Shown here in pieces: positions 1 to 21,683 of a stretch of 64,000 nucleotides of DNA; position 1 is the first letter of the stretch; each line of letters starts with the position of its first letter. This stretch comes from Herbiconiux moechotypicola (lineage in GTDB: Bacteria; Actinomycetota; Actinomycetes; Actinomycetales; Microbacteriaceae), in contig NZ_JANLCN010000014.1 in the NCBI RefSeq assembly GCF_024979255.1, positions 1-64,000 of the forward strand, read 5' to 3'. The translations under genes were made by a program, and so were the position numbers. The notes beneath the pieces were generated by a model that saw nothing but the letters and a program-made list of their open reading frames with translations, had not been told where the DNA came from and searched no databases.

Positions 1-183
1 GCCTTCCGGATCAGGCCACCAGTTAGCCACCGAAACTGGAACCCTTTCCGTGGGGCAGGTCAAGATGTCACCTACACGTGCAGCAGTCCCCGGCGCCACC
101 ATGAAATACTCCTCTTCTCTTCGTGTTCGCGTTGCCTGTCGTGGTGGCGTTCGCGGCCGAGGACATACTCACGCAGCTGCCAG

Positions 184-1362: not shown

Positions 1363-1466
1363 GTCATCAAGCTAACGATACCGGGGCTTTCGTGGATGAG
1401 TTTCACGTGCGACTCCGAGTGCTGGTCGATGCGCGTGATGTGTATGTAAAAAATCTAACCTAGACA

Positions 1467-1478
1467 GCGATTTATCGC
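1467..1478. promoter_or_regulatory. Palindrome GCGAT-TT-ATCGC in divergent intergenic region
   Basis: A perfect 5-bp inverted repeat with a 2-nt spacer lies about 90 bp before the binding-protein start and about 105 bp before the regulator start. It is a candidate operator for the adjacent XylR-like regulator or for a LacI-type protein. It is short, so the call is an inference. Confidence 0.35.
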
Positions 1479-1563
1479 ATCGCTTCGTTCGACATCCCCG
1501 CTTACCGTGGAGTCATCGCACCAGCCCGCCGCGACGTCACCCGCTCACGACAACGGAGTCATG

Positions 1564-4795: not shown

Positions 4796-4823
4796 CGAAC
4801 CACCTCACACGAAAGGAAACCTC

Positions 4824-6771: not shown

Positions 6772-7769
6772 AGACCCGAATCGTCGTCACGCCGCGATTC
6801 GACGAGATCTGGCCTGTGTCGGCCGACCGTCTGAAGAGTCTTCTGGAGCCGAGTAGCGATGTCGAACTGATCCGGACGAGCGAGGGAGCGCCTGTCGGGT
6901 CGAGCAGCGTCGATCGGCTGTTCTGGCTCGGCGGCAGCCTCACTGACCTCGACCTGGACGGCTATCCGGCGCTGCGTGAGGCATTCACCACTCTCGGGTA
7001 CGCGTCCGACCCGCTCACGGACGCCCTCCTCCGCGATCGCGGCATCCAAAGGATCGGTCATCCCTCCGAGGGATACTGGGCGCAGTCGGTGTCCGAGTTC
7101 GCGCTTGGTCTGACGATCGCGGCGCTCCGCCGGATACCCCAGCGCACGAGCCTGGTCCTCGACGGTCCGGGCGCCGGTTGGGAATATGAGGCGGAGCAGC
7201 TCAGCGATGATCTCCGCTTCGTCAGCGGCACGATCGCTGGCAAGCGGATCCGAGTCGTCGGCGCGGGCAACATCGCCAGCAGATATGCGAGCTTCACCTC
7301 GATGCTCGGTGCCGACGTGTCGGCATGGGACCCTTTCGCCGGCGAGCCCGCCTTCCATCGGGCTGGCGCACGTCGTGAGTGGAACCTGGAGAAGCTGCCG
7401 GTCGATGCGGACATCTTCGTGCCGATGGTTCCACTGATGGACTCGACACGGGGTCTTGTCACAGCGGAACTCATCCGGTCCATCCCCAATGGGTCGCTGG
7501 TCGTCCTCGCAACCCGTGCCGGCATCTGCGACGTCGCCGAGTTGCGGAGACGTGTCATCGCCGGTGAGCTGAGTCTTGCCGCCGACGTCTTCGATGTCGA
7601 GCCTCTTCCCGTCGGGGACGCGCTGTTGAGTCTGGATCACGTCGTGCTCTCGCCCCACATCGCGGGACGTACGCTCGACTCCGGATACCGGTGGGCCGAG
7701 GCACTGGCCGAGCAACTCCCGGAGTTCGAACCTCACGCCGTCGCGCCACCGGTGCGCCTTCGCCGATGA
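6768..7769 (+). CDS. D-isomer-specific 2-hydroxyacid dehydrogenase family protein
   Basis: This 333-residue protein is of the 2-hydroxyacid dehydrogenase type. A nucleotide-binding segment (VVGAGNIASRYASF) is near residue 165. The catalytic triad is recognisable: Arg in VVLATRAGICDVAEL, Glu in DVFDVEPLP and His in VVLSPHIAGRT. It probably interconverts a 2-hydroxy acid and a 2-keto acid derived from the imported sugar, using NAD(P). It is coupled by overlap to both neighbours. Confidence 0.87.
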   Translation: MKTRIVVTPRFDEIWPVSADRLKSLLEPSSDVELIRTSEGAPVGSSSVDRLFWLGGSLTDLDLDGYPALREAFTTLGYASDPLTDALLRDRGIQRIGHPSEGYWAQSVSEFALGLTIAALRRIPQRTSLVLDGPGAGWEYEAEQLSDDLRFVSGTIAGKRIRVVGAGNIASRYASFTSMLGADVSAWDPFAGEPAFHRAGARREWNLEKLPVDADIFVPMVPLMDSTRGLVTAELIRSIPNGSLVVLATRAGICDVAELRRRVIAGELSLAADVFDVEPLPVGDALLSLDHVVLSPHIAGRTLDSGYRWAEALAEQLPEFEPHAVAPPVRLRR

Positions 7770-8959
7770 ATCCTCGCGCGGAGGGTGTGCAGTTCCCATC
7801 CAGCGTGGATGGCCAAGCGGATGTAGAGTTCGGTCGCGTCATGGATGCCTTTCGTGACTCCTTTGCCGACCGCGGCCCGATGGGGGCGGCGCTATCGGTT
7901 TGGATCGACGGCCGTCAGGTGGTCGACGTCTGGGGTGGCGTGACCGCCGGAAACTTCGCATCCCAATGGACAGCAACAACGACTACCGTCGTCTTCTCGT
8001 GTACGAAGGCGCTTCTCGCCATCCTTGCCGCACGGCTCGTCCAAGAAGGCCGTCTGGACTACGAGGCGCCGGTGGCTCACTATTGGCCGGAGTTCGCGCA
8101 GGCGGGTAAGGAAGACGTCCTCGTCAAGCACGTACTTGCCCACCAGGCCGGCCTGTCAGCACCACGACGGTCCGTGTCGACCGATCAGGCAATCAGTTGG
8201 CCGTTCATGACCGAGCTGCTCGCCTCGCAGCGTCCTCTCTGGACACCAGGAACCGCCCACGAGTATCACGCACTCACGTTTGGCTGGCTCGTCGGCGAAC
8301 TGATCCGAAGAGTCAGCGGTCGATCGGTCGGCGACGCGCTGCAGGAGATCATCAGCCAGCCGCTGAACGCCGAGATCTGGATCGGCGTCCCTCCCGAACA
8401 GTCCTTCCGGGTCGCAGAGCTGCTGCTTGAAGAGGGCAGTGAGACCGCACACGCTGCGGCTGGTGAGCGCACGCCGCAAGAACCTGACTGGGGGGTGCGC
8501 TCGTTGACGCTGGGTGGCGCCTTCCCAGTCGAACTCGCCGGGCCAGGAACAGGATTCAACGACCCAAGGGTGCGGGCCGCCGAGATCGCCGGCGCAGGCG
8601 GCATCGCAACATCACGGTCCCTCGCCAAAGCGATGTCGGCAACAGTCGTGCGCACGGACGGGGTTCGTCTACTTGATGACGCGATTCTCGCCCGCGCGAC
8701 AGCGCCCGTGACGTTGGGGCCCCCAGCTTTCGGGCGCCCACCACCATGGTCAAAACGGGGTCTGGGGTTTCAGTTGCCCTCGCCAGGGCGAGGCTTTCTG
8801 TCCCCGCGATCTTTCGGTCATGACGGCGCAGGTGGTCAGATCGCATTCGCCGATCCTGACGCCCGCCTGGGATTCGCCTACCTTACGAATCGACTCGAGG
8901 CAGGGCCAGACGGGCGGGGCGCCTCGATCATCAATGCACTGCGGCGAGTCCTTTGCTGA
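7766..8959 (+). CDS. Serine hydrolase of the beta-lactamase/EstB family
   Basis: This 397-residue protein starts at the ATG at 7766, a 4-nt overlap with the previous gene. It carries the SxxK motif (SCTKALLA, about residue 75) and a Tyr motif (HEYHALTFGWL) like those of class C beta-lactamase-related esterases, plus a C-terminal FGHDGAGGQIAFADP segment. No signal peptide is seen, so an intracellular esterase or lactonase acting on an acylated sugar or a lactone fits better than a cell-wall enzyme. It is the last intact gene of the operon before the insertion sequences. Confidence 0.87.
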   Translation: MNPRAEGVQFPSSVDGQADVEFGRVMDAFRDSFADRGPMGAALSVWIDGRQVVDVWGGVTAGNFASQWTATTTTVVFSCTKALLAILAARLVQEGRLDYEAPVAHYWPEFAQAGKEDVLVKHVLAHQAGLSAPRRSVSTDQAISWPFMTELLASQRPLWTPGTAHEYHALTFGWLVGELIRRVSGRSVGDALQEIISQPLNAEIWIGVPPEQSFRVAELLLEEGSETAHAAAGERTPQEPDWGVRSLTLGGAFPVELAGPGTGFNDPRVRAAEIAGAGGIATSRSLAKAMSATVVRTDGVRLLDDAILARATAPVTLGPPAFGRPPPWSKRGLGFQLPSPGRGFLSPRSFGHDGAGGQIAFADPDARLGFAYLTNRLEAGPDGRGASIINALRRVLC

Positions 8960-9101
8960 GCACGCAATCAATCCTCGTCAAGAGTTCGGTCTGCTAATCA
9001 ACAAGCTGGTTGTGGCTCTTGTGGAATCGAGCCGCCATTCGGATGCCCAACTACTCGAAGCGCTCATTGATCTAAGCCACTCCGAGTGGAGTCCCGCATA
9101 G
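8960..9101 (+). other. Orphan reading frame ending at the IS boundary
   Basis: Between the serine hydrolase and the IS256 element, one frame reads openly through INPRQEFGLLINKLVVALVE and continues to a TAG whose last bases are the first bases of the insertion sequence. It has no convincing ribosome-binding site and I do not recognise it. It could be a fragment of a gene cut by the element, or chance. Confidence 0.2.
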
Positions 9102-10488
9102 TGGTGTAGCGCGCGGTGGCTGGGTTCGTCGCTTGGACGTAGGCGCGGTCACCGTGTGATCCTTCGAGGAAACTCTCACATCCCACTCGAAAGGCATCAT
9201 CACGATGACCGCACCTCATATTGTCGACCCTTCCGGCCTGCTCACCGAAGCCCTTCTCGACGCGTCGCCCGATCTGATGCGGCAGCCTGCTGCAAACGAT
9301 GATCAACGCGTTGCTGTCCGCGGACGCAGACGCTGTCGTCGGCGCGGAATGGGGCAAGCCCTTACCCGACCGCACGACCCAGCGCAACGGGTACCGGCAC
9401 CGCGACCTCGATACCCGGGTCGGAACGATCGACGTCGCGATCCCGAAGCTGCGGCAGGGCACGTACTTCCCGGAATGGCCCCTTCAGCGCCGCAAGCGCG
9501 CGGAGACAGCGATGATCACCGTCGTCGCGGACTGCTACCTCGCCGGCGTGAGCACCCGCCGGATGGACAAGCTCGTCAAGACCCTCGGGATCCACTCCCT
9601 CTCGAAGTCGCAGGTGTCCCGAATGGCGGTCGAGCTCGACGAGCACGTCGACCAGTTCCGGCACCGTCCGCTCGACGACGCCGGCCCGTTCACGTTCGTC
9701 GCCGCCGACGCGCTCACCATGAAGGTCCGCGAAGGCGGCCGGGTCATAGGCGCCGTCGTGCTCGTCGCGACCGGGGTCAACGCGGACGGGCGCCGCGAAG
9801 TCCTCGGGCTGCGGGTCGCGACCAGTGAGACGGGAGCTGCCTGGAACAGTTTCTTCGCCGACCTCGTCGCCCGCGGCCTGGGCGGGGTCCGTCTCGTCAC
9901 CAGCGATGCTCACGCCGGGCTCGTCGAAGCGGTCGCCGCGAACCTGCCCGGCGCGGTCTGGCAACGCTGCCGCACCCACTACGCCGCCAACCTGATGAGC
10001 GTGACACCGAAGGCCATGTGGCCAGCGGTGAAAGCGATGCTGCACTCCGTCTACGACCAGCCCGACGCCGACAGCGTCCACGCCCAGTTCGACCGGCTCC
10101 TCGACTACGTCGACGGGAAACTCCCCGACGCGTTCGAGCACCTCGACGCCGCCCGGGCGGACATCCTCGCGTTCACCGGATTCCCCGAGGGCCTCTGGCA
10201 GCAGATCTGGTCCAACAACCCGAACGAGCGTCTCAACCGCGAGATCCGCCGCCGCACCGACAGCGTCGGAATCTTCCCAAACCGGGACGCGATCATCCGC
10301 CTCGTCGGCGCCGTGCTCGCCGAACAGACCGACGAATGGGCCGAAGGCCGCCGCTACCTCGGGCTCGACATCCTCGCCAAGAGCAGGCTCACCCTCGTCG
10401 CCAACACCGGCATCGAGGAGGTGACCGACACCGTCCTCGAACTCAGCGCCTGACCCCTCAAACCAAAGGACACCGCGCTACACCACTA
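9099..10488 (+). mobile_element. IS256-family insertion sequence
   Basis: The element is bounded by perfect 15-bp terminal inverted repeats (TAGTGGTGTAGCGCG at 9099-9113, its complement at 10474-10488) and holds one transposase frame. The total of 1390 bp is usual for the family. The 8-9 bp flanks do not match each other, so no target duplication is visible. Together with the truncated SDR gene on the right, this suggests that a deletion accompanied or followed insertion. Confidence 0.88.
9205..10453 (+). pseudogene. IS256-family transposase, frameshifted
   Basis: The natural start is the ATG at 9205 (MTAPHIVDPSGLLTEALLDA), but after ASPDLMR the reading continues one frame over as SLLQTMINALLSADAD, which implies one extra base near 9283. 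Corrected, the product would be 415 residues, usual for the family. The catalytic acidic residues are intact: Asp in FVAADAL, Asp in LVTSDAHAGL and Glu in NPNERLNREIRRR. Without correction, translation from 9299 would lack about 30 N-terminal residues. It is therefore a pseudogene, a sequencing slip, or a still-functional shortened protein. Confidence 0.82.
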
Positions 10489-10685
10489 CCCGGGACTTGA
10501 CCATGACTCAGCCCCTCTCCCAGGACCCGACATTCAGTGGGTGGGTCCAGAACCGCACGCCAGCTGGCCGATGGGGGACCCCCGACGACCTGGTAGGCGT
10601 CGCAGTCTGGCTCTCCTCCTCAGCCAGCACATTCGTCAACGGTCAGACGATCTACATCGACGGAGGGCTAACCAGCGTTGTCTGA
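10489..10685 (+). pseudogene. C-terminal fragment of a short-chain dehydrogenase (SDR)
   Basis: About 60 codons encode the end of a classical SDR: MTQPL, a short linker, RTPAGRWGTPDDLVGVAVWL and SSASTFVNGQTIYIDGGLTSVV. The Rossmann fold and the Ser-Tyr-Lys site are missing and are not found on the other side of the IS256 element. The gene was probably the next member of the upstream sugar operon, lost to an IS-associated deletion. Confidence 0.85.
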
Positions 10686-10793
10686 CCCCACGAGTTCACG
10701 CCGCCCGGAAGTCCCGCCGGACTCCCACGACGCAGCCCACGTTCACACGGCAGGGAGCCTGACCCGGTTTCCCGGACGGTTCTTGTGTGTTGA

Positions 10794-11618
10794 TCATGCC
10801 GCGATTTCTGCGGCGGTGTGAAGGGCTTCGAACTCGGCGGGGCTGAGGTCGCCGAGGCTTGTGTGCCGGCGGCGCGGGTTGTAGTGCCCCTCGATCCACT
10901 CGAACATCGCCGACGCGAGCTGCGCCTTGGAGTCCCAGGCCGTGCGGTCCAGGAGCTCGCGTTGCATCGTTGACCAGAAGCTCTCGATGAGGGCGTTGTC
11001 GACGCTGGAGGCGACTCTGCCCATCGATCCGAGGAGCCCGGCTTGGCGGAGCCGGTGGCCGAAGAGCCACGAGGTGTATTGCGCTCCTCGGTCCGCGTGA
11101 ACCACGGTGCCGGGTTCGGGGCGCCGCCGCCAGCGGGCCATGTCGAGCGCGTCGACGACGATGTCCGCGGTGATCCGATCCGAGATCGACCACCCCACGA
11201 TCCGGCGTGAGTAGGCGTCGATCACGGCCGCGCAGTAGACCCAGCCGTCTCTCGCCCGGTGCTGCGTGATGTCGCAGAACCAGAGCCGGTTCGGCGCATC
11301 GGCGCGGAACTGCCGCTTCACGAGGTCCTCGTGCGTGGCAGTGTCGGGCTTCCAGCCGCGCCGCTTCCGGCGATGGGAGACCCCGACCAGTCCGTCCAGT
11401 CGCATCAGCCGGGCGACGCGCTTGCGGCCCACGTGAACGTTGAGTCCGCGCCGCAGTTCCGCCAGCACCCGCGGCGCGCCATAGGTCTCCCGGGAGTCGG
11501 CGTGGATACGGCGGATTGTCGTGGTCAGCTCCGCGTCCGCGACCGCCCGCGGTGAGGGTGGTCGGCTCGCCCACTCGTAGTAGCCGGAGGTGGAGATGTT
11601 CAGGAACCGGCAGGCCAC
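10794..11618 (-). CDS. IS3-family transposase OrfB (integrase core)
   Basis: This 274-residue frame carries the HTH_21 segment followed by the rve integrase core, with the DDE residues visible: Asp in RLWFCDITQ, Asp in VVHADRGAQYTS and Glu in NALIESFWSTMQ. It ends with the typical YNPRRRHTSLGDLSPAEFE motif. It is normally made as an OrfAB fusion by -1 slippage near the end of OrfA, where the minus strand reads CCCAAAATAG. The ATG used here is internal, so the exact N-terminus is uncertain. Confidence 0.9.
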   Translation of the reverse strand: MACRFLNISTSGYYEWASRPPSPRAVADAELTTTIRRIHADSRETYGAPRVLAELRRGLNVHVGRKRVARLMRLDGLVGVSHRRKRRGWKPDTATHEDLVKRQFRADAPNRLWFCDITQHRARDGWVYCAAVIDAYSRRIVGWSISDRITADIVVDALDMARWRRRPEPGTVVHADRGAQYTSWLFGHRLRQAGLLGSMGRVASSVDNALIESFWSTMQRELLDRTAWDSKAQLASAMFEWIEGHYNPRRRHTSLGDLSPAEFEALHTAAEIAA

Positions 11619-11665
11619 CGCGACGGGGATACCGTCCGCGGCGAGCTCCTGGACCAGCCGGAACC

Positions 11666-11977
11666 CTATTTTGGGAGCACGTTCTCCCTCGCGAAGTACG
11701 CCGACGCACGCTTGAGGATCTCGATCTCCATCTCCAGCACCCGGTTCCGACGCCGCAGCTCGACGAGCTCCTTGTGCTCGTCCGTCGTGACGCCGGCCTT
11801 ACGGCCGGTGTCGACCGCGTCTCGGTTCATCCAGTTCCGAAGGCAGGACTCGCTGATCCCGAGATCACGGGCAGTCTGACCGACAGGGTTGCCCTGGGCG
11901 ACCAGATCCAGGGCTCGACGCCGGAACTCCGGCGGGTGGGCAGCAGGCATCTCACGGACTCCTTCCGAGACGATCAT
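11666..11977 (-). CDS. IS3-family transposase OrfA (helix-turn-helix)
   Basis: This 103-residue protein has an HTH_Tnp_1 domain (FRRRALDLVAQG followed by TARDLGISESCLRNWM) and a leucine-zipper-like coiled coil (ELRRRNRVLEMEIEILKRA), both standard for OrfA. It binds the inverted repeats and supplies the N-terminus of the fusion transposase. A second ATG (MPAAHPPEF) nine codons in is an equally possible start. Confidence 0.88.
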   Translation of the reverse strand: MIVSEGVREMPAAHPPEFRRRALDLVAQGNPVGQTARDLGISESCLRNWMNRDAVDTGRKAGVTTDEHKELVELRRRNRVLEMEIEILKRASAYFARENVLPK

Positions 11978-12083
11978 CGCCTCAACTCAGGTGTCCGGGA
12001 AACCGGGTCAGGCTCCCAGACCTCGAATCTTAGGAGTGGTGTGATGGTTGCGTTCGTTATGATCGCCCGGCGGTGGCGTCCAT

Positions 12084-12121
12084 CGTGTCGGGGAAGTTTC
12101 TTTCGGCTCTTCCCCGACACG
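12084..12121 (-). terminator. Hairpin terminator of the lectin remnant
   Basis: A perfect 13-bp stem (CGTGTCGGGGAAG with its complement) surrounds a 12-nt loop and lies 13 nt past the stop of the lectin remnant on the minus strand. A clear U tract is lacking, as is common in high-GC genomes. Confidence 0.7.
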
Positions 12122-12133
12122 AATGACTGTTCC

Positions 12134-12334
12134 TTACTGCGGCAGGGTCCATTTCTGGCTCGCACCGGCGTGGCAGCTCCAGACGTGGGCTTGGGTTCCG
12201 TTGGCGGTGGATCCGCCGACGAGATCGAGACACTTGCCGCTGAGCGCTCCGAATCTCGACGGCGTCGTCCGGGCCGCAATGGTCGCGGCGTTGGGCGAGG
12301 CATCCCGCATCAAGACCCGCCCGATCGATCGCAT
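12134..12334 (-). pseudogene. Remnant of a ricin-B-type lectin domain (CBM13)
   Basis: From about 12253 down, the frame encodes ALSGKCLDLVGG, a short STANGTQ-type turn, and WSCHAGASQKWTL before the stop. The CLD and QxW pattern is that of one ricin-B/CBM13 repeat, the usual C-terminal module of secreted actinobacterial glycosidases. Nothing catalytic precedes it, so this is the tail of a lost extracellular enzyme. A strong hairpin follows in the expected place. Confidence 0.65.
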
Positions 12335-12438
12335 GGCCTATGTAAGCGCCGCGTCGCATACTTCTATACGCCGAGAGCTGTGCTGGTCGCTCAGGAATGC
12401 CGCCGGGCTCGCGACGATCCTGAGGGCGGCGAGTGCGA

Positions 12439-12594
12439 GCTCCCGGGACTCCCAGAGCCGGCTCACCGCGTCCATCCACTCCTCGGCCCGCACGTAGCGC
12501 TCGTCGTGTTCGAACATCCGGTCGTAGCCGTAGTTCTGCGCGACTCGGTGGCTGACCGAGGTCACCACGTTGAAGCCGATGCGGCCGTTGGAGA
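12439..12594 (-). pseudogene. Duplicated internal fragment of the flavin monooxygenase gene
   Basis: These 156 bases match 28899-29054 with only two visible mismatches (at 12445 and 12461). They encode SNGRIGFNVVTSVSHR through EEWMDAVSRLWES on the minus strand, the middle of the LLM-class monooxygenase at 28093-29412. Similarity stops sharply at both ends. The copy is too short to be functional and points to a recent duplication or recombination event in the IS-rich zone. Confidence 0.88.
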
Positions 12595-12775
12595 TGTATG
12601 ACGGCGGTCGGGCGCCGCTAGAGAGTTGAGTGCGACGGCCGGACAGCTGTGCAGTGCGAGAGTCGGCTGTGCGTTGTTGCTTCGACGACTCAGGAGAGCG
12701 CTTCAGCTCGGGAATTGACAAATGAAGTGCCTAGCGGGTTGCCATCAACAATCGGGACGGCATTCCGAGCACCTA

Positions 12776-12789
12776 GGCCTATTTAGGCC
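12776..12789. promoter_or_regulatory. Palindrome GGCCTA-TT-TAGGCC
   Basis: A perfect 6-bp inverted repeat with a 2-nt spacer lies 13 nt before the -35 box of the RpiR promoter. It could be a second operator or an upstream activator site. No partner protein can be assigned. Confidence 0.3.
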
Positions 12790-12801
12790 CGAATGAGCCA
12801 C

Positions 12802-12840
12802 TTGACACTTCAACTTCAGATCACTAATCTGAAGTTGAAG
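12802..12840 (+). promoter_or_regulatory. Sigma70-type promoter overlapped by a perfect 14-bp inverted-repeat operator
   Basis: A consensus -35 TTGACA (12802-12807) and a -10 TAATCT (12825-12830) are exactly 17 nt apart. A perfect 14-bp inverted repeat (CTTCAACTTCAGAT at 12808-12821, complement at 12827-12840, 5-nt spacer) covers the spacer, the -10 box and the likely start site. A protein bound here would block RNA polymerase. The natural candidate is the RpiR-family regulator encoded 70 bases downstream. Confidence 0.85.
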
Positions 12841-12908
12841 CACGCGATGGCCATGAGAGATTCTGGTCGTGATGGGCTGCGACACAGACCGCAATGGAGG
12901 GGCGCATT

Positions 12909-13757
12909 ATGGCGACGAATGAAAGCGACATCTTCGTCAAGGCGCGATTCGTCTACGCTTCGTTGCCGAAAGCGGAGCGCGGCGCGGCTGATCTACTCTT
13001 CGACGACGGCAAGGCGGCCGCAGGTTATACCCTGGCTGAGTACGCGATGAGAGCGGGCACCTCGGAGTCGTCCGTCATCCGATTCTGCCGACGGATCGGT
13101 GCCGCCGGATATGCGGAGTTCACCGAACTCCTACAGCACGCGAGTGAGGCGCCGAACGGGCACGGCGCCTATCGGATCGCCGCGAGCGACAGTGTGAAGA
13201 CTGCGTTCGAGAAGGTTGCCCGCAACTACAACGACACGCTCACCGATACTTTGGCGCTGTACACGCCGGAGTACGAGCGGGCACTGGCGGCCATCCGCGA
13301 CGCACGCATCGTGCACTTCTTCGGAATCGGCGACGCGCACCTGGTCTGCCAAGCGGCGCAGATGAAATTCACCCGCGTGGGGAAGCAGTCCACCGCCTAC
13401 AGCGACTCCGCGTTGATGCTGGCGACGGGCAGCTTGGCGGAGCCGGTTGACGTCATCGTCGCTGTCTCGTTCTCGGGGCAGAGCCGCGTGCTCACGAACG
13501 CGGTGCGGTTGGCGAAGCAGAACGGCGCCACCGTCGTCGCGATCCTGCACAACGAGAAGAGCACCCTCGGAAAGCTGGCCGACATCAGCCTGTTCACAGC
13601 GACCACCGACCTCACCCCGACCCACGACGAGATCGCACGGAGGATCGCCGAACACGCCATCGTCGACACCCTCTACATGGCGATGATCTCGCAAGACTCC
13701 GAGATTTACGGTCCGAGAGGCGAACAGTCCTTGTCGGCGATCGAAGCTTACAAGTAG
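12909..13757 (+). CDS. MurR/RpiR-family transcriptional regulator
   Basis: This 282-residue protein starts at the ATG at 12909, 6 nt after GGAGGGG; an ATG at 12894 overlaps that ribosome-binding site and is less likely. It has an N-terminal HTH_6 domain (YTLAEYAMRAGTSESSVIRFCRRIG) and a C-terminal SIS domain (about 120-260, including VSFSGQSR) that in this family senses a phosphorylated sugar. It lies at the head of the pentose-type cluster and probably represses it and its own promoter. Confidence 0.9.
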   Translation: MATNESDIFVKARFVYASLPKAERGAADLLFDDGKAAAGYTLAEYAMRAGTSESSVIRFCRRIGAAGYAEFTELLQHASEAPNGHGAYRIAASDSVKTAFEKVARNYNDTLTDTLALYTPEYERALAAIRDARIVHFFGIGDAHLVCQAAQMKFTRVGKQSTAYSDSALMLATGSLAEPVDVIVAVSFSGQSRVLTNAVRLAKQNGATVVAILHNEKSTLGKLADISLFTATTDLTPTHDEIARRIAEHAIVDTLYMAMISQDSEIYGPRGEQSLSAIEAYK

Positions 13758-13936
13758 CGCCGATGAGCAGCCCTCAATAGCCCCAGAAGACGCAGTTCTT
13801 GCGAGCGCGGAAACGCGCTCGCCGCCCCGGCACGAGCAGGACGAGCCACCACTTCTCCTTGCCGCGCCCGAAAAGTGTGCCGATCGACGACGACGGCGCA
13901 CGATCCCGAGAGAAAACCAGGAGAAAGAGGAAAACG

Positions 13937-14914
13937 ATGCACAAGTCACTCGTACAGGGGGTCGGCACGGCCGTGATCGCGGTCATGCTGCTCGCGGGGT
14001 GTTCCGCGGGCGGAACCGACGCCGGACAGAGCGATTCGCCGACTGATTCCAGCAACCTGAGCATGGCGTTCTCCGGCTCCGAGCTCGCGAACCCGTGGGT
14101 GTCGACCGTCAAGGACGGCTTCGAGGCCGCCTGCAAGGACAACAACATCCGCTGCACCACCCTGAACGCCGGCAGCGACGTCGACAAGCAGGTCACCGAT
14201 GTGCAGAACGCGATCAACGGCGGCCAGAACGCGATCATCATGAACCCCGTCGACGGCACCGCGCTCGAATCGGTGCTCACCGCAGGCAAGGAGAAGGGCG
14301 TCGCGAGCATCACGGTCGCCCAGACGGCGGATGCGTCGACAGGCTCGATCTACCTCGACGACGCAGCGTACGGCGAGATGATCGCGGAGAACGCGGTGCA
14401 GTGGATCAAGGAGGAGCTCGGCGGCAAGGGCACCGTGGCGATTCTCGGTGAGGAGAACATCGAGTCGTCGATCGCCCGCGGCGACGGGATCGAGGAGACG
14501 ATCAAGCGTGAGCTCCCCGACGTGAAGATCGTCGCGCGGCAGCACGCGAACACACCGGATCTGGGCCTCAGCGTCACCCAGAACCTGCTGCTGCAGTACC
14601 CCGACCTCAACGTGATCGTCGCCGCGAACGACTCGGGTGGAATCGGCGCCTACCAGGCCTTCGAGAACAGCGGCCTCGCCACCGATCCGCAGCGTGGCAT
14701 CTTCTCGGGCGACAAGACCGACGAGGCGATCAAGTACATGTCGATCCCCGACAGCATCTACCGCGGAACCGTCGACCTGCAGCCGTACAACGCCGGTTAC
14801 GCGGCGGTCGAGATGGCGTTGCAGCAGTTGAAGGACGGGCTCCCCGCCGAGCAGGAGCGTCAGCAGCTGGAGATGACGCCGTTCACGCAGGAAGAGGCGC
14901 TCGCCACCAAGTAG
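13937..14914 (+). CDS. Ribose-type sugar ABC transporter binding lipoprotein
   Basis: This 325-residue protein starts at the ATG at 13937 behind an AGGAGAAAGAGG purine tract. It has a signal peptide with lipobox (LLAGC), then a Peripla_BP_4 (RbsB-like) domain: SGSELANPWVSTVKDGF, NAIIMNPVDGTAL and VIVAANDSGGIGAYQAF. It binds a sugar outside the membrane and hands it to the permease at 16490. It lies 179 nt after the regulator and is followed by a hairpin before the ATPase gene. Confidence 0.92.
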   Translation: MHKSLVQGVGTAVIAVMLLAGCSAGGTDAGQSDSPTDSSNLSMAFSGSELANPWVSTVKDGFEAACKDNNIRCTTLNAGSDVDKQVTDVQNAINGGQNAIIMNPVDGTALESVLTAGKEKGVASITVAQTADASTGSIYLDDAAYGEMIAENAVQWIKEELGGKGTVAILGEENIESSIARGDGIEETIKRELPDVKIVARQHANTPDLGLSVTQNLLLQYPDLNVIVAANDSGGIGAYQAFENSGLATDPQRGIFSGDKTDEAIKYMSIPDSIYRGTVDLQPYNAGYAAVEMALQQLKDGLPAEQERQQLEMTPFTQEEALATK

Positions 14915-14918
14915 TGCC

Positions 14919-14950
14919 TCCGGTGGCCCGCCCCGCAGCGGGCCACCGGA
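14919..14950 (+). terminator. Intra-operon hairpin after the binding-protein gene
   Basis: A perfect 13-bp stem (TCCGGTGGCCCGC with complement) and a 6-nt loop begin 4 nt past the stop. Such hairpins behind binding-protein genes usually act as partial terminators or mRNA stabilisers, giving more binding protein than ATPase and permease. No U tract follows. Confidence 0.7.
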
Positions 14951-14990
14951 TGCTCGTCCACCAGCCCGCAGCACGAGATCGGAGTCGACA

Positions 14991-16493
14991 TTGGTGATTC
15001 TGCAGGTCGAGAATCTGAGTAAGAAGTACGGGAACTTCCTGGCCCTGGAGAACGCATCCTTCGAGGTGAAAGAGGGGAGCGTCCACGCCCTCTGCGGCGA
15101 GAACGGCGCGGGCAAGTCGACACTGATCAAGATGCTCTCGGGGGCGATCGTGCCCACCAGCGGGCGGTTCGTGATCGACGGGGTCGAATCCACGGGCATG
15201 ACCCCTCGCGAGGCCATGAACCACGGAATCCGCGCGATCTACCAGGAGTTCAGCCTCGTTCCTTTCCTGACCGTCGCCGAGAACATCTTCTACGGCCGCG
15301 AGCCGACCCGGGCCGGCTTCTGCGACTTCGGGAAGATGAAGGACGACGCCCGCGCGCTGTGCCGGGAGATGGGTGTGGAGATCGATCCCGGGGCCAGGGT
15401 CGAGACCTTGGGTGTGGCACAGCAGCAGATCGTGGAGATCCTCAAAGCGGTCTCAAGCAAAGCGCGACTGCTGATCATGGACGAGCCCACGGCCTCATTA
15501 ACCGTCGGCGAGACCCAGGTCTTCTACGACATCGTCCGCCGCCTGCAGGCGGCCGGCACCGCGATCATCTACATCTCGCACCGGCTCGAGGAGGTCTTCA
15601 GCCTGTGCGACGAGGTCAGCGTGCTCTGTGACGGGCGGATGACCGCGACCCGGCCGGTGGAGGACGTCACCCGGCGAGAACTCATCTCCCTCATGGTTGG
15701 ACGGGACCTCGTCGAGTCCTACCCGGAATCGAGCACCGCTCCGGGAGCGGAGGTTCTGCGGGTGAGCAATCTCGAGAACGATCGGCTCCACGACGTGAGC
15801 TTCGCGCTGCACGCGGGGGAGATCCTCGGCTTCGGCGGGCTCATCGGCGCCGGGCGCACGGAGCTTGCGATGGCCCTGATGGGTGAGTTGAAGATCGACG
15901 GCGGAACCGTCTTGTTGCGGGGAGCCGACTACCGGCCGCGCTCGTCGCGATACGCGCTGACCCGGGGCATCGGCCTGATTCCGGAAGACCGGAAGCATCA
16001 GGGAGTCGTGATGTCGCTGAGCGTGAAACGCAACGTCTCACTGGGCATCTTGGACAAGCTCTCGAACGCCGCCGGAATCTTGAGTCGCGCCCGGGAGGAC
16101 GAGTACTACGACAAATACGCCACAGAGCTCGCGATCAAGACGGCGACCCCGAACAACCTCGTGAGTACCCTCTCGGGCGGCAACCAGCAGAAGGTCGTGG
16201 TGGCGAAGGTCTTGGCGAGGGATTGCGAAGTGATCATCTTCGACGAGCCCACCCGCGGGATCGACGTCGGAGCGAAACACGAGATCTACGGCCTCATGCG
16301 CGAACTCGCCGACCAGGGCAAGGCCATCATCCTGATCAGCTCCGACATGCCCGAATTGCTCGGGATGTCCGATCGGATCGCGGTGATGAGCGCCGGTTAT
16401 CTGGTGGCGGATCTCGGCCGCGGAGAGGCCGATCAGGCAACGATTTTGGAGCTCGCCTCCACGAAGCTCGCAATGGAAGAAGGAATGCAATGA
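14991..16493 (+). CDS. Sugar ABC transporter ATP-binding protein (RbsA/MglA type, tandem ATPase)
   Basis: This 500-residue protein has two fused ATPase halves. The first has CGENGAGKSTLIKM (about 37-50). The second carries the degenerate Walker A GGLIGAGRTELA (about 283) and a signature/Walker B segment LSGGNQQKVVVAK...IIFDEPTRGIDVGAKHEIY. This is the CUT2 arrangement. The start is TTG at 14991, 6 nt after GGAG, with GTG at 14994 as an alternative. It overlaps the permease gene by 4 nt. Confidence 0.92.
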   Translation: MVILQVENLSKKYGNFLALENASFEVKEGSVHALCGENGAGKSTLIKMLSGAIVPTSGRFVIDGVESTGMTPREAMNHGIRAIYQEFSLVPFLTVAENIFYGREPTRAGFCDFGKMKDDARALCREMGVEIDPGARVETLGVAQQQIVEILKAVSSKARLLIMDEPTASLTVGETQVFYDIVRRLQAAGTAIIYISHRLEEVFSLCDEVSVLCDGRMTATRPVEDVTRRELISLMVGRDLVESYPESSTAPGAEVLRVSNLENDRLHDVSFALHAGEILGFGGLIGAGRTELAMALMGELKIDGGTVLLRGADYRPRSSRYALTRGIGLIPEDRKHQGVVMSLSVKRNVSLGILDKLSNAAGILSRAREDEYYDKYATELAIKTATPNNLVSTLSGGNQQKVVVAKVLARDCEVIIFDEPTRGIDVGAKHEIYGLMRELADQGKAIILISSDMPELLGMSDRIAVMSAGYLVADLGRGEADQATILELASTKLAMEEGMQ

Positions 16494-17461
16494 GGTCTGT
16501 GAACCGGGATCGTCTCGTCCACTACGTGTTCGAGTACGGAATCGTCGTCGTCTTGGCGGTGCTGGTGCTGGTGTTCTCCCTGAGCTCGCCGTCGTTCTTC
16601 ACGGCCAGCACCCTGACCACCATCCTCAGCCAGGTCTCCGTCATCGGCATCATTGCGATCGGCATGGCCTGCGTGATGCTCCTCGGCAGCATCGATCTGT
16701 CGGTGGGCGCCACCGCGGGTCTGGTGAGTGTGACCGCTGCGCTGCTCATGTCGATGGGCTTTCCAGTCTGGTCGGCGGTGATTCTCACCCTGATCGTGGG
16801 AATCGTGATCGGTCTCTTCAACGCTCTGTCGTTGACGTTGTTCCGCATCCCGTCGCTCATCGGCACCCTGGCCGTGATGACGGCGCTCCGTGGGCTGGCC
16901 TATCTGCTCTCTAACGGCATACCGATCTACGACATCGACGCCGGATTCAAGCAATTGGCTCAGGGCTCGTTTCTGTCGATCCCCATTCCCGGTCTCCTCT
17001 TCCTCGGCATCTTCGTCGTGGTCGCCATCGTGCTCAACCGGGCGAAGATCGGCCGGCAGATCTACGGCGTCGGCGGCAACGAGGAGGCCAGCCGCCTCTC
17101 CGGCGTGCCGGTGACGCGCATCAAGTACTTCGTCTTCGCCCTCAGCGGACTGCTGGCGGCGGTCGGCGGCCTGCTCCTGCTTGCGCGCACGAACAGCGGT
17201 CAGCCGAGCGCGGGCTCCGGCTACGAGCTGGATGTCATCACGGCGGTCGTGCTCGGGGGCGTGGCGATCACGGGCGGAAAGGGACGGCTCTGGTTGGTGC
17301 TCGTCGGTGTGCTCATCATGGGCACCCTCTCGACCGGAATGGTCATGAACAACGTCAACGACTACGTGCAGCAAGTGGTCAAGGGACTGATCTTGGTGGC
17401 AGCGGTCGCGTTCTCCCAGATCGCGGCGAGGTCGCAGGGCGGCCGCACCATCACACGGTGA
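16490..17461 (+). CDS. Sugar ABC transporter permease (RbsC type)
   Basis: This 323-residue integral membrane protein has 8-10 hydrophobic segments, with the family motifs CVMLLGSIDLSVGATAGL and GRQIYGVGGNEEASRLSGV, and TAVVLGGVAITGGKG towards the end. It starts at the ATG overlapping the ATPase stop. It completes a CUT2-type importer likely to carry a pentose or a related monosaccharide. Confidence 0.92.
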   Translation: MRSVNRDRLVHYVFEYGIVVVLAVLVLVFSLSSPSFFTASTLTTILSQVSVIGIIAIGMACVMLLGSIDLSVGATAGLVSVTAALLMSMGFPVWSAVILTLIVGIVIGLFNALSLTLFRIPSLIGTLAVMTALRGLAYLLSNGIPIYDIDAGFKQLAQGSFLSIPIPGLLFLGIFVVVAIVLNRAKIGRQIYGVGGNEEASRLSGVPVTRIKYFVFALSGLLAAVGGLLLLARTNSGQPSAGSGYELDVITAVVLGGVAITGGKGRLWLVLVGVLIMGTLSTGMVMNNVNDYVQQVVKGLILVAAVAFSQIAARSQGGRTITR

Positions 17462-17507
17462 CCGGCGAAGACACGGTGACCAGAGAACGAGAAACGGGGT
17501 ACAGCAG

Positions 17508-18218
17508 ATGTTGGAAGAACTGAAGAAGCAGGTCGTCGAGGCCAATCGCGGGCTGAAGGACGCAGCTCTCGCGATCCTGACCTGGGGGAACGCGTCGGGT
17601 TTCGACCCGGAGTCGGGGCTCGTCGTCATCAAGGGGAGCGGCGTCGCCTACGAAGACATGGGCGTGGACGATCTGGCGGTCGTCGACCTCGACGGAAACG
17701 CGGTCGAGGGCGCGGCCACGCCGTCCACCGACCTCGCCACACACCTCACGCTCTACCGCAATTTCCCCTCGGCTCGGGGCGTGATCCACACCCACTCCCT
17801 GTACGCCACCGCCTGGGCGCAACTCGGCCGGGACATCCCCTGCTACGGAACGACGCACGCCGACTACTTCCCGGGCCCGATCCCGTGCACCCGCACGCTC
17901 GGGAGCGACGAGGTCTCCGGCGACTACGAGCTCGCCACGGGTGATGCCATCGTGCAGCGATTTGCCGATCTCGATCCGGCGAAGATGCGCGCCGTGCTGG
18001 TGCGCTACCACGGCCCGTTCGTCTGGGGGTCCTCGCCCGCCGACGCCCTTCACAACGCGATGGTGTTGGAGTACGTCTCGCAGCAGGCCTTCAACACCTC
18101 GGTTCTCTCCGGGGGTGCCGATCCGACGATTGATCGCGATCTCATGCACAAGCACTACGAGCGCAAGTTCGGAAAGGATGCCTACTATGGCCAGTCTCCC
18201 GCCGCACGCGTCCGTTGA
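17508..18218 (+). CDS. araD: L-ribulose-5-phosphate 4-epimerase-like class II aldolase
   Basis: This 236-residue protein closely follows the AraD/UlaF pattern: MLEELKKQVVEANRGL, ILTWGNASGFDP, IKGSGVAYEDM, ARGVIHTHSLYATAWAQLG (metal-binding His pair) and YGTTHADYFPGPIPCTR (third His). Known AraD enzymes interconvert L-ribulose 5-phosphate and D-xylulose 5-phosphate with a divalent metal. UlaF-type enzymes in ascorbate pathways look alike, so the natural substrate could differ. The end of the gene overlaps the SIS isomerase by 32 nt. Confidence 0.88.
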   Translation: MLEELKKQVVEANRGLKDAALAILTWGNASGFDPESGLVVIKGSGVAYEDMGVDDLAVVDLDGNAVEGAATPSTDLATHLTLYRNFPSARGVIHTHSLYATAWAQLGRDIPCYGTTHADYFPGPIPCTRTLGSDEVSGDYELATGDAIVQRFADLDPAKMRAVLVRYHGPFVWGSSPADALHNAMVLEYVSQQAFNTSVLSGGADPTIDRDLMHKHYERKFGKDAYYGQSPAARVR

Positions 18219-18804
18219 CCAGCAGGCCCGCGCCGTGCTGCGGGTGGAGTCAGCCGCGATCGCGGCGCTGGCCGACCGGATGGACTGGAGCGCCGTCGAA
18301 TCGCTCGTCGACCTCCTACTCGAACCCGGCGGGCGTGTCTTCACCTCCGGCTGCGGCACATCCGGAGCCGCCGCTAAGAAGATCGCCCACACCCTGAGCT
18401 GCGTGGGTTGCTCGGCGTCGTTCCTCAACCCGTCGGATGCCCCGCACGGCGCACTCGGGGCGGTGCGGCGTGGTGACGTGGTGATTCTGATCTCGAAGGG
18501 GGGCGGTACCGAGGAGCTGGTGCGGCTCTTGCCCGCCCTCGCGAGCCTGGGCGTCCGCATCGTGGCGATCACCGGTGTGCCCGACTCCGTCATCGGCCGC
18601 AAGGCGGAGATCACGCTGCGGGTCGAGGTCGACGCAGAACCCGACCCGTTCAACATGCTCGCCACCGCCAGCACCCTGGCCGTGACCGCGGTGATGGATG
18701 CCGTGACCATCTGCGTGATGCAGCGCAACGGCTTCGACCGCCGGCAATTCGGCGTCATCCACCCTGGTGGCGCTGTCGGGGAACGACTGGCAGCGCACAG
18801 CTGA
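18187..18804 (+). CDS. SIS-domain sugar-phosphate isomerase (KdsD/GutQ-like, without CBS domains)
   Basis: This 205-residue protein starts at the ATG at 18187, inside the end of the epimerase gene. It has a single SIS domain with VFTSGCGTSGAAAKKIAHTL (about 50-70), LISKGGGTEELVRLLPAL and a C-terminal FGVIHPGGAVGERL, which resembles the PGGAIGRKL of arabinose-5-phosphate isomerases. The two CBS domains of KdsD are absent. It probably isomerises a ketose phosphate and an aldose phosphate made in this pathway. The specific pair cannot be read from sequence. Confidence 0.83.
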   Translation: MASLPPHASVDQQARAVLRVESAAIAALADRMDWSAVESLVDLLLEPGGRVFTSGCGTSGAAAKKIAHTLSCVGCSASFLNPSDAPHGALGAVRRGDVVILISKGGGTEELVRLLPALASLGVRIVAITGVPDSVIGRKAEITLRVEVDAEPDPFNMLATASTLAVTAVMDAVTICVMQRNGFDRRQFGVIHPGGAVGERLAAHS

Positions 18805-18852
18805 TCGCGCCCGGCGCCCCCGAATCACAAACCACCACAGTAAAGGAATCCC

Positions 18853-20007
18853 ATGACAAACTCATCGCGCGTACTGAAGTACGGAATGGTCGGAGGCGGC
18901 GACGTCTCCAGCGTCGGAGAGCTCCACCGGAACGCCCTCCGGTTGAACGGCGACGCCGAACTCGTCGCCGGTGTCTTCTCGCACGATCTCGAGAAGTCCC
19001 GGCGCACGGGTGCGGAACTCGGCGTCGACGCATCCCGCATCTATGCATCCGCCGACGAGATGGCGGAACGCGAGGCAGCTCGCGAGGACGGCATCGATTT
19101 CGTCGACATCTCGACGCCGAACGCCTATCACTACGCCGCGTCAAAGGCGTTCCTGGAACTCGGCATCCACGTCGCCTGCGAGAAGCCCCTGTGTCTCACC
19201 CCCGAGGAGGGCGTGGACCTGGAGGAGGTCGCTGCCCGCACGGGCGCCCTGTTCTGCCTGATGCACACCTTCACCGGGCACGCGATGTCGCGTGAAGCGC
19301 GCGCCCTCTACGAAGACGGAGTCATCGGCGAGCTCCGCACCGTGGTGGTCGAGTACCCGCAGGACTGGCTGGTCGACGCGCTCGAGAAGGAGACCGAGGA
19401 GACGAAGACCTGGCGGTCGATCCCCGCGCTCTCCGGTCGCGGTGCCGCGATCGGCGACATCGGATCACACATGGAGAACTGGGTGCACTACGTGACCGGG
19501 TTGGGCATCCACTCCGTGCTCGCCAACCTGGAGGCCCTGGGGTCGGGCACCATGCTCGACAACAACTTCCAGGTGATCACGAAGTTCGAGAACGGCGCGT
19601 CCGGGTTCTTCTGGGGCAGCCAGGTGGCGGTCGGCTACGACAACGCGTTCAAGGTGATGCTGCTCGGCGAGAAGGGGTCGCTGGAGTTCTGGCAGGAGAA
19701 CAACAACTACCTCGTGCTGCGCCTGCGCGATCAGCCGATGCAGGTGCTGTCGCGGGGGAGCGCCTACTCCCGGCCCGAGTCGCTGAAGTACCTCCGCACC
19801 CCGAAGGGGCACCCGGAGGGCCTCACGGAGGCGTTCGCTAACATCTACAGTGCGTTCGCCGACGCGATTCGGGATCGTCGTGACGGAACGGTGAAGCCCG
19901 AGCAGGAGTATGGCTACCCGACTTTGGCCATGGGAGTCGCCGGCGTGCGCTTCTTCAACGCCTGCGTGGACAGCCAGGAGGCGGGGAACGCCTGGGTCGA
20001 GCTGTGA
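18853..20007 (+). CDS. Gfo/Idh/MocA-family oxidoreductase
   Basis: This 384-residue protein has the N-terminal NAD(P) fold (YGMVGGGDVSSVGELHR), the intact catalytic EKP motif (HVACEKPLCLTPEE, about residue 108) and GDIGSHMENWVHYVTG with a candidate catalytic His. It likely oxidises a sugar or polyol hydroxyl, or reduces a keto sugar. It starts after an AAAGGAA ribosome-binding site and overlaps the kinase start by 4 nt. Unlike the relative at 4824, it keeps the catalytic lysine. Confidence 0.9.
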   Translation: MTNSSRVLKYGMVGGGDVSSVGELHRNALRLNGDAELVAGVFSHDLEKSRRTGAELGVDASRIYASADEMAEREAAREDGIDFVDISTPNAYHYAASKAFLELGIHVACEKPLCLTPEEGVDLEEVAARTGALFCLMHTFTGHAMSREARALYEDGVIGELRTVVVEYPQDWLVDALEKETEETKTWRSIPALSGRGAAIGDIGSHMENWVHYVTGLGIHSVLANLEALGSGTMLDNNFQVITKFENGASGFFWGSQVAVGYDNAFKVMLLGEKGSLEFWQENNNYLVLRLRDQPMQVLSRGSAYSRPESLKYLRTPKGHPEGLTEAFANIYSAFADAIRDRRDGTVKPEQEYGYPTLAMGVAGVRFFNACVDSQEAGNAWVEL

Positions 20008-21683
20008 GCACCACGGCGGAGCCGCTGTACTCGATCGGCGTCGACTTCGGCACCCTGTCCGGGCGGGCGGTGCTGGTGGATGTTGCGAGTGGCGACATTG
20101 TGGCCACCAGCGTGCTCGACTACCCGCACGGCGTGATGAGCAGGCATCTGCCCTCGGGCCGGGAGCTTCCGGCCGACTGGGCCTTGCAGCATCCGTTCGA
20201 TTACGTCGAGGTGCTGGCGACAACCATACCGGACGTGCTGGCCACCGCGGATGTCGACGGCTCGCGGGTGGTGGGGCTCGGCCTCGATTTCACCGCCTGC
20301 ACCGTGCTGCCGATCCTTGCCGACGGTACCCCGCTGTGCACGCTCGCGGAGTTCGCTGACGAGCCGCACGCGTTCGTGAAGCTCTGGAAGCATCACGCGG
20401 CGCAGCCCTACGCGACGAGGATCACCGAGGTCGCGGAGGCTCGCGGCGAGGCCTGGCTGTCGCGGTACGGCGGGAGGATCTCGTCGGAGTGGATGTTCCC
20501 GAAGATCTGGGAGACCCTCGACCTGGCCCCCGCGGTCTACGCCCGCGCCGACGAGTTCATCGAGGCTGGCGACTGGGTGATCCGGCAGCTGACCGGTGTG
20601 CCTGTGCGCAGCGCCGCGCTGGCCGGCTACAAGGCCATGTGGGATGCCGAGAGCGGCTTCCCGGACAACTCCTTCTGGGCCGCCGTGGAGAGCGGGCTGG
20701 TCGGGGTCGGTGCGAAGCTCCCCGGCCCGTTTCGGCCGGCCGGCTCCCGCGCCGGATCCCTCCTCCCGGAGATGGCCGCGCTCACGGGGTTGCCCGTGGG
20801 CACGCCCGTGGCGGTCGCCAACAGCGACGCCTATGTCTCGGCGCCGGCGCTCGGTGTGACCGGAACGGGCGATCTCTTCTCGATCGTCGGAACCTCGAGC
20901 TGCACCTTGATCCTAGACGAGTCGTTCCGGCCGGTCCCCGGGATCTCCGGATGCGTGCACGACGGCATTCTCTCCGGATTCTTCGGCTACGAGGCGGGGC
21001 AGGCGGCGGTCGGGGACATCTTCGCGTGGTTCGTGCGGGAGAGCGTGCCGGCGTCATATGTCGAGGAGGCGCGGAGACTCGGCCTTGACATCTTCGTCTA
21101 CCTGGAGTCGCTCGCCCGGGAGCTCGCGCCCGGCGCGAACGGTCTCGTGGCCCTCGACTGGTGGAACGGCAACCGGAGCGTGCTGGTCGACGCCGAGCTG
21201 TCCGGGCTCCTCGTGGGTTTGACCCTTCAGACCACCGCGGCGGAGGTCTATCGGGCGCTCCTGGAATCCGTCGCCTTCGGAATGCGGACGATCGTCGACA
21301 CCTTCGTCGAGCACGGCGTCGCGGTCGACACGATGACCGTCACCGGCGGAATCTCGCAGAAATCGCCCCTGCTCATGCAGATCTATGCGGATGTGACGGG
21401 TCGAGAGATCCGGGCCTCGCAATTGGCGATCGGCCCGGCCCTCGGGTCGGCCATCTTCGGCGCCGTCGCGGCCGGCCTGGCGGGTCGGGGATACTCGACC
21501 ATCTCGGAGGCGGCCGCGGCGATGGCCAGCCGGGACGACATCCGGTACCTGCCCGATCAGGGACGGCACCGGGCGTACGGCGAGCTCTACGAGCAGTACG
21601 TTCAGCTGCACGAGCACTTCGGTCGAGGCGGCAGCGACGTGATGCGCGCTTTGCGCCGCATCAGCGCCGCCGCGCGCGAGTAG
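20004..21683 (+). CDS. araB: FGGY-family carbohydrate kinase, ribulokinase-like
   Basis: This 559-residue protein of ribulokinase length starts with YSIGVDFGTLSGRAVLVD (phosphate-binding region) and has the FGGY C-terminal ATPase fold: GLTLQTTAAEVYRALLESVAFGMRTI and VTGGISQKSPLLMQIYADVTGR. It most resembles AraB-type kinases, which phosphorylate L- or D-ribulose at the 5-OH. It starts at a GTG overlapping the dehydrogenase stop and is the last gene of the operon. AraB assignment is by overall resemblance; another ketopentose is possible. Confidence 0.87.
   Translation: MSTTAEPLYSIGVDFGTLSGRAVLVDVASGDIVATSVLDYPHGVMSRHLPSGRELPADWALQHPFDYVEVLATTIPDVLATADVDGSRVVGLGLDFTACTVLPILADGTPLCTLAEFADEPHAFVKLWKHHAAQPYATRITEVAEARGEAWLSRYGGRISSEWMFPKIWETLDLAPAVYARADEFIEAGDWVIRQLTGVPVRSAALAGYKAMWDAESGFPDNSFWAAVESGLVGVGAKLPGPFRPAGSRAGSLLPEMAALTGLPVGTPVAVANSDAYVSAPALGVTGTGDLFSIVGTSSCTLILDESFRPVPGISGCVHDGILSGFFGYEAGQAAVGDIFAWFVRESVPASYVEEARRLGLDIFVYLESLARELAPGANGLVALDWWNGNRSVLVDAELSGLLVGLTLQTTAAEVYRALLESVAFGMRTIVDTFVEHGVAVDTMTVTGGISQKSPLLMQIYADVTGREIRASQLAIGPALGSAIFGAVAAGLAGRGYSTISEAAAAMASRDDIRYLPDQGRHRAYGELYEQYVQLHEHFGRGGSDVMRALRRISAAARE

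Follow-up and report, generated by a model that had tools for sequence, protein, structure and literature searches.

We analyzed a stretch of 64,000 nucleotides from Herbiconiux moechotypicola (contig NZ_JANLCN010000014.1, positions 1 to 64,000; this whole stretch is referred to here as the window), which carries at positions 12802-21683 a sugar operon combining a CUT2 importer, an AraD epimerase, a SIS-domain isomerase, a Gfo/Idh dehydrogenase and an AraB kinase with an RpiR-family regulator. This gene set probably lets a sugar or sugar alcohol with five carbons enter the L-ribulose route while dispensing with the customary sugar isomerase. The reading we favor, and hold with somewhat more confidence than doubt, is that the operon was acquired horizontally and opens a second way to L-ribulose 5-phosphate that does not depend on araA; an imported ketopentose, or a polyol or sugar oxidized by the Gfo/Idh enzyme, would feed it. 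The operon comprises the following features:

12802-12840, plus strand: probable promoter and operator, TTGACA-17-TAATCT overlaid by an inverted repeat
12894-13757, plus strand: RpiR-family regulator (HTH_6 and SIS domains in Pfam)
13937-14914, plus strand, inside the open reading frame 13799-14914: CUT2 substrate-binding lipoprotein (Peripla_BP_4; lipoprotein signal recognized by eye)
14991-16493, plus strand: CUT2 ATPase, AraG-like (top NCBIfam model PRK11288 AraG, 527 bits, below the cut-off of 689)
16490-17461, plus strand: CUT2 permease, AraH-like (top NCBIfam model PRK11285 AraH, 254 bits, below the cut-off of 378)
17508-18218, plus strand: AraD (PRK08193, 299 bits, cut-off 257; TIGR00760, 294 bits, cut-off 389)
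18187-18804, plus strand: single-domain SIS sugar-phosphate isomerase, KpsF/KdsD-like, without CBS domains (Pfam SIS; kpsF, 137 bits, cut-off 203.7)
18853-20007, plus strand: Gfo/Idh/MocA dehydrogenase (Pfam)
20004-21683, plus strand: L-ribulokinase AraB (PRK04123, 662 bits, cut-off 428; TIGR01234, 645 bits, cut-off 583)

The genes follow each other in the same direction and all in frame (12894-21683; the start codons are our choice), are tightly packed, and overlap at their ends at three joints (ATPase/permease, AraD/SIS and Gfo-Idh/AraB). Profile searches against NCBIfam and Pfam backed the family assignments. No aldose isomerase gene (araA, xylA) is among the operon genes, and neither araA nor xylA was found in the 64-kb window. 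The genes, the overlaps and the missing aldose isomerase listed in a preliminary description of this DNA were thus borne out by open reading frames and profile searches. With the known araBDA and araBAD operons the window operon shares an AraB-type ribulokinase and an AraD leading to D-xylulose 5-phosphate, as well as a CUT2 importer like AraFGH, but it has no AraA and adds the SIS and Gfo/Idh proteins and the RpiR regulator.

The comparison of gene order proposed in the preliminary description recovered the succession importer-AraD-SIS-Gfo/Idh in four other genomes, all clostridial, which indicates more than a chance assembly. In Christensenella intestinihominis (locus L013) and genome G650 (L104), AraB and an additional SIS gene come next. 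In Clostridium sp. Marseille-P3244 (L014) and the draft genome RUG154 (L019) the set continues with an additional SIS gene and an FGGY kinase other than AraB, and a transaldolase-like gene is found nearby. The SIS gene thus occurs together with Gfo/Idh and AraD in five of five operons, the window included, all of them found through Gfo/Idh. Across the four loci the Gfo/Idh protein is the most conserved (75-77% identity in the best segment); AraB, AraD and SIS show 49-63% and the binding protein at most 68%. In the L019 draft the Gfo/Idh gene (10001-11406) is split by a frameshift, the ATPase gene is apparently split as well, and the second SIS gene is truncated.

The core formed by AraB and AraD, named from translations in the preliminary description, is genuine. 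Both ribulokinase cut-offs are passed by AraB and one of two AraD cut-offs, that of the PRK08193 subfamily, by AraD. Aligned with AraB of Bacillus halodurans (3qdk, 627 bits), the kinase keeps the equivalents of A96, K208, D274 and E329, which we take to be substrate contacts; AraD aligns end to end with E. coli AraD (1jdi) and keeps D120, H218 and Y229, presumably the catalytic residues. In L014 and L019 the AraB slot is occupied by an FGGY kinase of another subfamily. The L014 kinase is 61% identical to the kinase adjoining araA in its own genome and 53% identical to the kinase in the host's own araBDA operon, and we presume from these araA-linked relatives, rather than from a comparison with AraB-III or AraK sequences, that it is a ribulokinase. 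According to published work, at least two molecular solutions for L-ribulokinase evolved in the FGGY family, with an AraB-III subgroup in Firmicutes that is shared with Actinobacteridae (PMC3245297), and the ribulokinase of Clostridium acetobutylicum has been named AraK (PMC3507653). That two presumed ribulokinase subfamilies fill the same operon slot suggests L-ribulose or a close relative or analogue as the kinase substrate.

The window operon is not the only L-arabinose gene set of its host. In the host genome (4.28 Mb, 51 contigs) the AraA N-terminal model has one match, a full-length AraA on contig C29. Its gene belongs to an araBDA-type operon whose kinase is a XylB-like FGGY protein and whose AraD comes from another subfamily (PRK06557, 361 bits, cut-off 251); a LacI-family regulator gene adjoins this operon. 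A xylA gene is located on contig C34, where the Arthrobacter-type xylA model scores above its cut-off. No second AraB-type kinase was found in the host genome, the next match being 32% identical (89 bits). An araA gene elsewhere under the same regulator, which the preliminary description had named as a finding that would speak against a new route, was not found; araA sits beside a LacI-type gene with its own kinase and epimerase, shared regulation not having been tested.

Acquisition of the operon from outside the genus is well supported. Searches of 119 genomes for the Gfo/Idh protein gave no match at an E-value of 1e-40 or better in any of the host's 15 genus mates; four of the remaining genomes have matches, at 36-37% identity. 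Among 394 genomes of the host's class only the host matched at 1e-90. A scan with short peptide patterns, using one genome per species, confirmed 78 relatives, of which the nearest three are clostridial (75-77% identity in the best segment). In the class of one of these nearest genomes three of 391 genomes match at 1e-120, that genome included; in the scans of both classes the best few candidates per genome were scored. Five of 18 genomes in the family of C. intestinihominis, itself included, encode a match at this same threshold, and the copy with 75% identity is confined to C. intestinihominis and G650, the others showing 54-58%. In a first AraB tree (15 rows) the window protein is joined with two Christensenella-type AraBs (support 95/82). 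In a second tree of 19 rows, with five more distant AraBs from plasmid records added and the Treponema row left out, 11 AraBs from the host's order (the ones for which loci were obtained, out of 35 other genomes that had a match) are kept apart from it with support of 100/100.

The region upstream of rpiR points in the same direction. A perfect 14-bp inverted repeat (arms 12808-12821 and 12827-12840), at which the span 12808-18804 given in the preliminary description opens, lies over the promoter-like sequence TTGACA-17-TAATCT, which was identified by eye and not by a promoter scan. The stretch 12802-12840 is identical to sequence upstream of rpiR at 29 of 39 positions in L013 and at 28 of 39 in L104, a likeness reached by none of 1000 dinucleotide shuffles in either case, and the RpiR protein is 55% identical to the regulator of these two loci, compared with 40-41% in L014 and L019. 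The palindrome would be bound by RpiR, and a phosphosugar would release the regulator from it. Gene order and operator likeness in the Christensenella-type loci together suggest a transfer between phyla in which the operator was carried along; the donor was probably a Christensenella-like relative of gut bacteria, the direction being our inference.

The SIS protein carries a SIS domain alone in Pfam searches, kpsF is its top hidden Markov model, and 3fxa is its nearest solved relative. With KdsD, GutQ and KpsF it shares the SIS domain, the KpsF-like sequence and the equivalents of E152 and H193, but it lacks CBS domains, has lost the equivalents of K59 and E111, and shows an SKGG loop in place of SNSGE; we take K59, E111, E152 and H193 to be the KdsD active-site residues. 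Its complete active-site signature in the alignment is GTSG/SKGG, where the KdsD type has GKSG/SNSGE, and 5uqi, presumably an arabinose-5-phosphate isomerase, retains both KdsD-type motifs. We aligned 25 related SIS proteins, the window included (among them 15 of the 28 matches from one SIS search, which scored the best few candidates per genome, but not the truncated second SIS of L019). In all 25 the K59 position is never Lys and the E111 position never Glu, a Lys or Arg is present in the loop of the E111 position, and the H193 equivalent is His; the E152 equivalent is Glu in 24. By its active site the protein is thus not a plain KdsD, as far as the aligned residues tell. A plain arabinose-5-phosphate isomerase exchanging ribulose 5-phosphate and arabinose 5-phosphate, an outcome that the preliminary description had held against its own reading, would agree with the top model and with the retained E152 and H193 equivalents, but we rejected it as rather improbable because of the active-site residues lost throughout the clade, the Lys or Arg in the neighboring loop, scores below the curated cut-offs and the lack of CBS domains. 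An Amadori-product deglycase of the FrlB type was considered and set aside; the top models are of the KpsF type.

Genes for an FGGY kinase and a CUT2 importer adjoin members of this SIS clade in both Erwiniaceae plasmid loci that were opened (Pantoea and Duffyella) and in all three opened loci from host relatives. Among clostridial SIS loci, a count that leaves out L152-L155, an FGGY-kinase match was found within about 7 kb in five of 11 (L141, L143, L149, L150 and L151). SIS relatives in the two opened Bacilli loci lie in phosphotransferase system (PTS) clusters with pentose-phosphate enzymes, and in the Listeria innocua cluster one gene carries the annotation galactitol-1-phosphate dehydrogenase. 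L141 (3866-10012) holds a further sugar cluster of the clade, in which a SIS relative (55%) stands by an FGGY kinase, a DRL-type oxidoreductase (PF21135) and a Zn-alcohol-dehydrogenase-like protein recognized by eye, with an RpiR-like gene just beyond (2968-3861). More distant SIS relatives in L144, L146, L150 and L151 all cluster with triosephosphate-isomerase-like proteins, accompanied by a ribulose-phosphate 3-epimerase near those of L144 and L146 and by YjbQ-like proteins and AraA/FucI-like isomerases near those of L146 and L151 (all named by eye), which suggests a further pathway.

The Gfo/Idh protein matches four NCBIfam models, each below its cut-off. All 12 aligned rows, the window included, have Lys111, Asp202 and His206; we take them to be the EKP lysine and the Asp...His pair of Gfo/Idh/MocA dehydrogenases, and their conservation is consistent with an active dehydrogenase. 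Among eight plasmid loci opened around relatives with 34-45% identity, an importer and a TIM-barrel isomerase gene are found in three and TIM-barrel genes alone in two. Oxidation at carbon 1 to a lactone, comparable to L-glucose and D-xylose dehydrogenases, was considered unlikely; no lactonase or dehydratase was recognized in the operon, and AraB and AraD need a ketose.

In the route that we favor, a five-carbon compound would enter through the CUT2 importer, either as a ribulose-type ketopentose or as a polyol or sugar that the Gfo/Idh dehydrogenase would oxidize with NAD(P) to a ketose. The ketose would be phosphorylated by AraB, and AraD would convert L-ribulose 5-phosphate to D-xylulose 5-phosphate, which would pass into the pentose phosphate pathway; the SIS enzyme may isomerize a by-product or isomer of the ketopentose phosphate and thereby prevent waste. 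The Rbl locus of Citrobacter rodentium (PMC12307932) offers a precedent for half of the gene set. It consists of a CUT2 importer, an FGGY pentulose kinase and a KpsF-like isomerase, with no aldose isomerase mentioned in the passages that describe it. For D-ribulose, the importer and the kinase are indispensable and the isomerase is not. By this precedent, import of a ketopentose makes an aldose isomerase unneeded. Importer, FGGY kinase and KpsF-like SIS protein recur in the window operon, but its kinase is an AraB and not an annotated D-ribulokinase (it fails TIGR01315, the D-ribulokinase-type model of FGGY family pentulose kinases, with 157 bits against a cut-off of 409, whereas the Pantoea kinase scores 690), it has AraD and Gfo/Idh in addition, and it has one permease gene as opposed to two in the Rbl-like Pantoea and Duffyella loci. 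These Erwiniaceae loci, with two permease genes, an FGGY kinase and a SIS gene, match the layout reported for Rbl in that source, so that RblI presumably belongs to the SIS clade, judging from layout and not from Rbl sequences.

A number of observations weigh against this reading, both in its acquisition part and in its biochemical part. L014 and L019 contain no match to the operator (19 of 39 positions, with 647 and 611 of 1000 shuffles equally good). The low G+C content extends over the left flank (65.7% for the operon, 64.2% for positions 1-12800 and 69.8% for positions 22001-64000) and does not mark the operon alone. In the second AraB tree the Christensenella-type AraBs are nearest to the window protein, with support of 84/97 that does not reach the starred level. 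Both trees place the window protein on a long branch, and since its identity is 55-56% to Christensenella-type AraBs and 53% to an AraB of Deinococcus, it is uncertain which donor this gene came from. All four matching loci were reached through Gfo/Idh likeness, and a Treponema locus (L015) has AraD, importer and Gfo/Idh with no SIS match in 21 kb. AraD remains below the stricter TIGR00760 cut-off. An E. coli AraB also phosphorylates D-ribulose (PMC12307932), so that L-ribulose is a candidate and not a proven kinase substrate. In the SIS clade, L147 is the single row without the E152 equivalent, the 11 further SIS matches in host relatives include two of the GKSG type (L173 and L179, the latter assigned without its loop being read) and one with an SNGG loop (L176), and no FGGY-kinase match was seen in six of the 11 clostridial loci, some of which are on short contigs. 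If the Gfo/Idh enzyme oxidizes carbon 2, the SIS step has no necessary place. The Gfo/Idh relatives themselves include two of the eight plasmid loci with xylA and xylB within about 6 kb and one inositol cluster, and these relatives are 39-45% identical. Of the four solved structures nearest to the Gfo/Idh protein, 3v5n and 3dty are members of the scyllo-inositol/L-glucose dehydrogenase structural clade (PMC5969746), which speaks against an acyclic polyol; in contrast to that clade, the window protein stands in an AraB/AraD and not an inositol context, and its similarity to the characterized member 5ya8 is low (61 bits). The preliminary description had proposed that this enzyme could form the ketose from a polyol or an uncommon pentose; that step is not borne out here, and clusters and structural clade make a cyclic substrate at least as likely.

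Narrower and competing explanations differ in how well they account for all conserved enzymes. Oxidation of L-arabitol or ribitol at carbon 2 to L-ribulose by the Gfo/Idh enzyme, followed by AraB and AraD, is a narrower form of the favored reading and a tentative though doubtful possibility; it is balanced in redox terms, since one oxidation of a pentitol would yield the ketopentose for AraB, and the L. innocua cluster with its galactitol-1-phosphate dehydrogenase agrees with it, but no characterized pentitol 2-dehydrogenase of the Gfo/Idh family is known to us, the family is in part found in inositol and xylose clusters, and this reading does not account for the SIS protein. Import of free L-ribulose or D-ribulose, with AraB and AraD essential and the SIS and Gfo/Idh enzymes recovering side products, is likewise a narrower form of the favored reading and appears unlikely. 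It would need no aldose isomerase and fits the Rbl layout and phenotype, including the lack of a growth defect upon deletion of the isomerase gene rblI (PMC12307932), as well as the same-clade SIS proteins in the Pantoea and Duffyella loci; against it, no protein of the set is as similar across the loci as Gfo/Idh, which is unlike an accessory enzyme, although the loci were picked by Gfo/Idh likeness and are hence biased, and free L-ribulose is not known to be an abundant nutrient.

A plain L-arabinose operon was rejected because the host keeps araA in an araBDA-type operon that has a kinase and an epimerase of its own. That the window operon is a spare araB-araD set borrowing this araA is very unlikely: an araA is indeed present in the genome, and AraG and AraH are the best-scoring models for the ATPase and permease of the importer, but the host araBDA operon already has kinase, epimerase and an adjoining LacI-type regulator gene, and the SIS and Gfo/Idh proteins would be unexplained although they occur together with AraD in all five operons found through Gfo/Idh. 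Moreover, the C. intestinihominis draft genome has the same operon and no canonical araA was found in it, only two remote AraA-like proteins (110 and 154 bits, cut-off 622); no AraA-like proteins were found in the L019 draft genome. A further route has a slim chance, in which Gfo/Idh would oxidize carbon 3 of a pentitol or cyclic form, AraB would phosphorylate the resulting 3-pentulose, and the SIS enzyme would move the carbonyl from position 3 to position 2, so that AraD would receive L-ribulose 5-phosphate. 6-Phospho-3-hexuloisomerase shifts a carbonyl between carbon 3 and carbon 2, and the altered SIS active site may no longer be suited to aldose-ketose exchange. If true, every conserved enzyme would have a necessary role, and the SKGG clade would be 3-to-2 ketose-phosphate isomerases.

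The surroundings of the operon contain mobile elements and a large repeat. A Mutator-family (IS256-type) transposase (9299-10453, plus strand), an IS3-type integrase-core transposase (10794-11618, minus strand) and a small IS3-like open reading frame recognized by eye (11666-11977, minus strand) lie to its left. Two copies of a 162-bp direct repeat, 98% identical, are located 16.46 kb apart at 12436-12597 and 28896-29057; the left copy is inside an open reading frame with a fragmentary match to luciferase-like monooxygenases and repeats part of the open reading frame 28093-29412 (minus strand). The sugar operon and a peptide-type ATP-binding cassette (ABC) gene set lie between the copies, which likely represent a rearrangement scar. 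No clean empty insertion site was seen in genus mates, and a DNA search with the right flank gave scattered matches of 64-91% among the matches listed. Further to the left, positions 184-3917 encode an XylR-like AraC-family regulator (minus strand) adjoining a sugar-type ABC binding protein and permease (plus strand), and positions 7691-8959 a protein with a domain of the beta-lactamase family (PF00144), which includes esterases too.

Literature searches in open-licence PMC found no published description of this gene set. Three protein groups for which we found no described function are linked by the operon to L-ribulose 5-phosphate, a known end product. These are a subgroup of Gfo/Idh proteins, the SIS clade, whose genes accompany those of FGGY kinases and CUT2 importers in several groups of bacteria, and a binding protein with no closely related solved structure (87 bits for the top one). 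Because the three are tied to one product, knowledge of the substrate would help to annotate further genomes. For H. moechotypicola, the operon looks like a transfer between phyla that brought its own operator.

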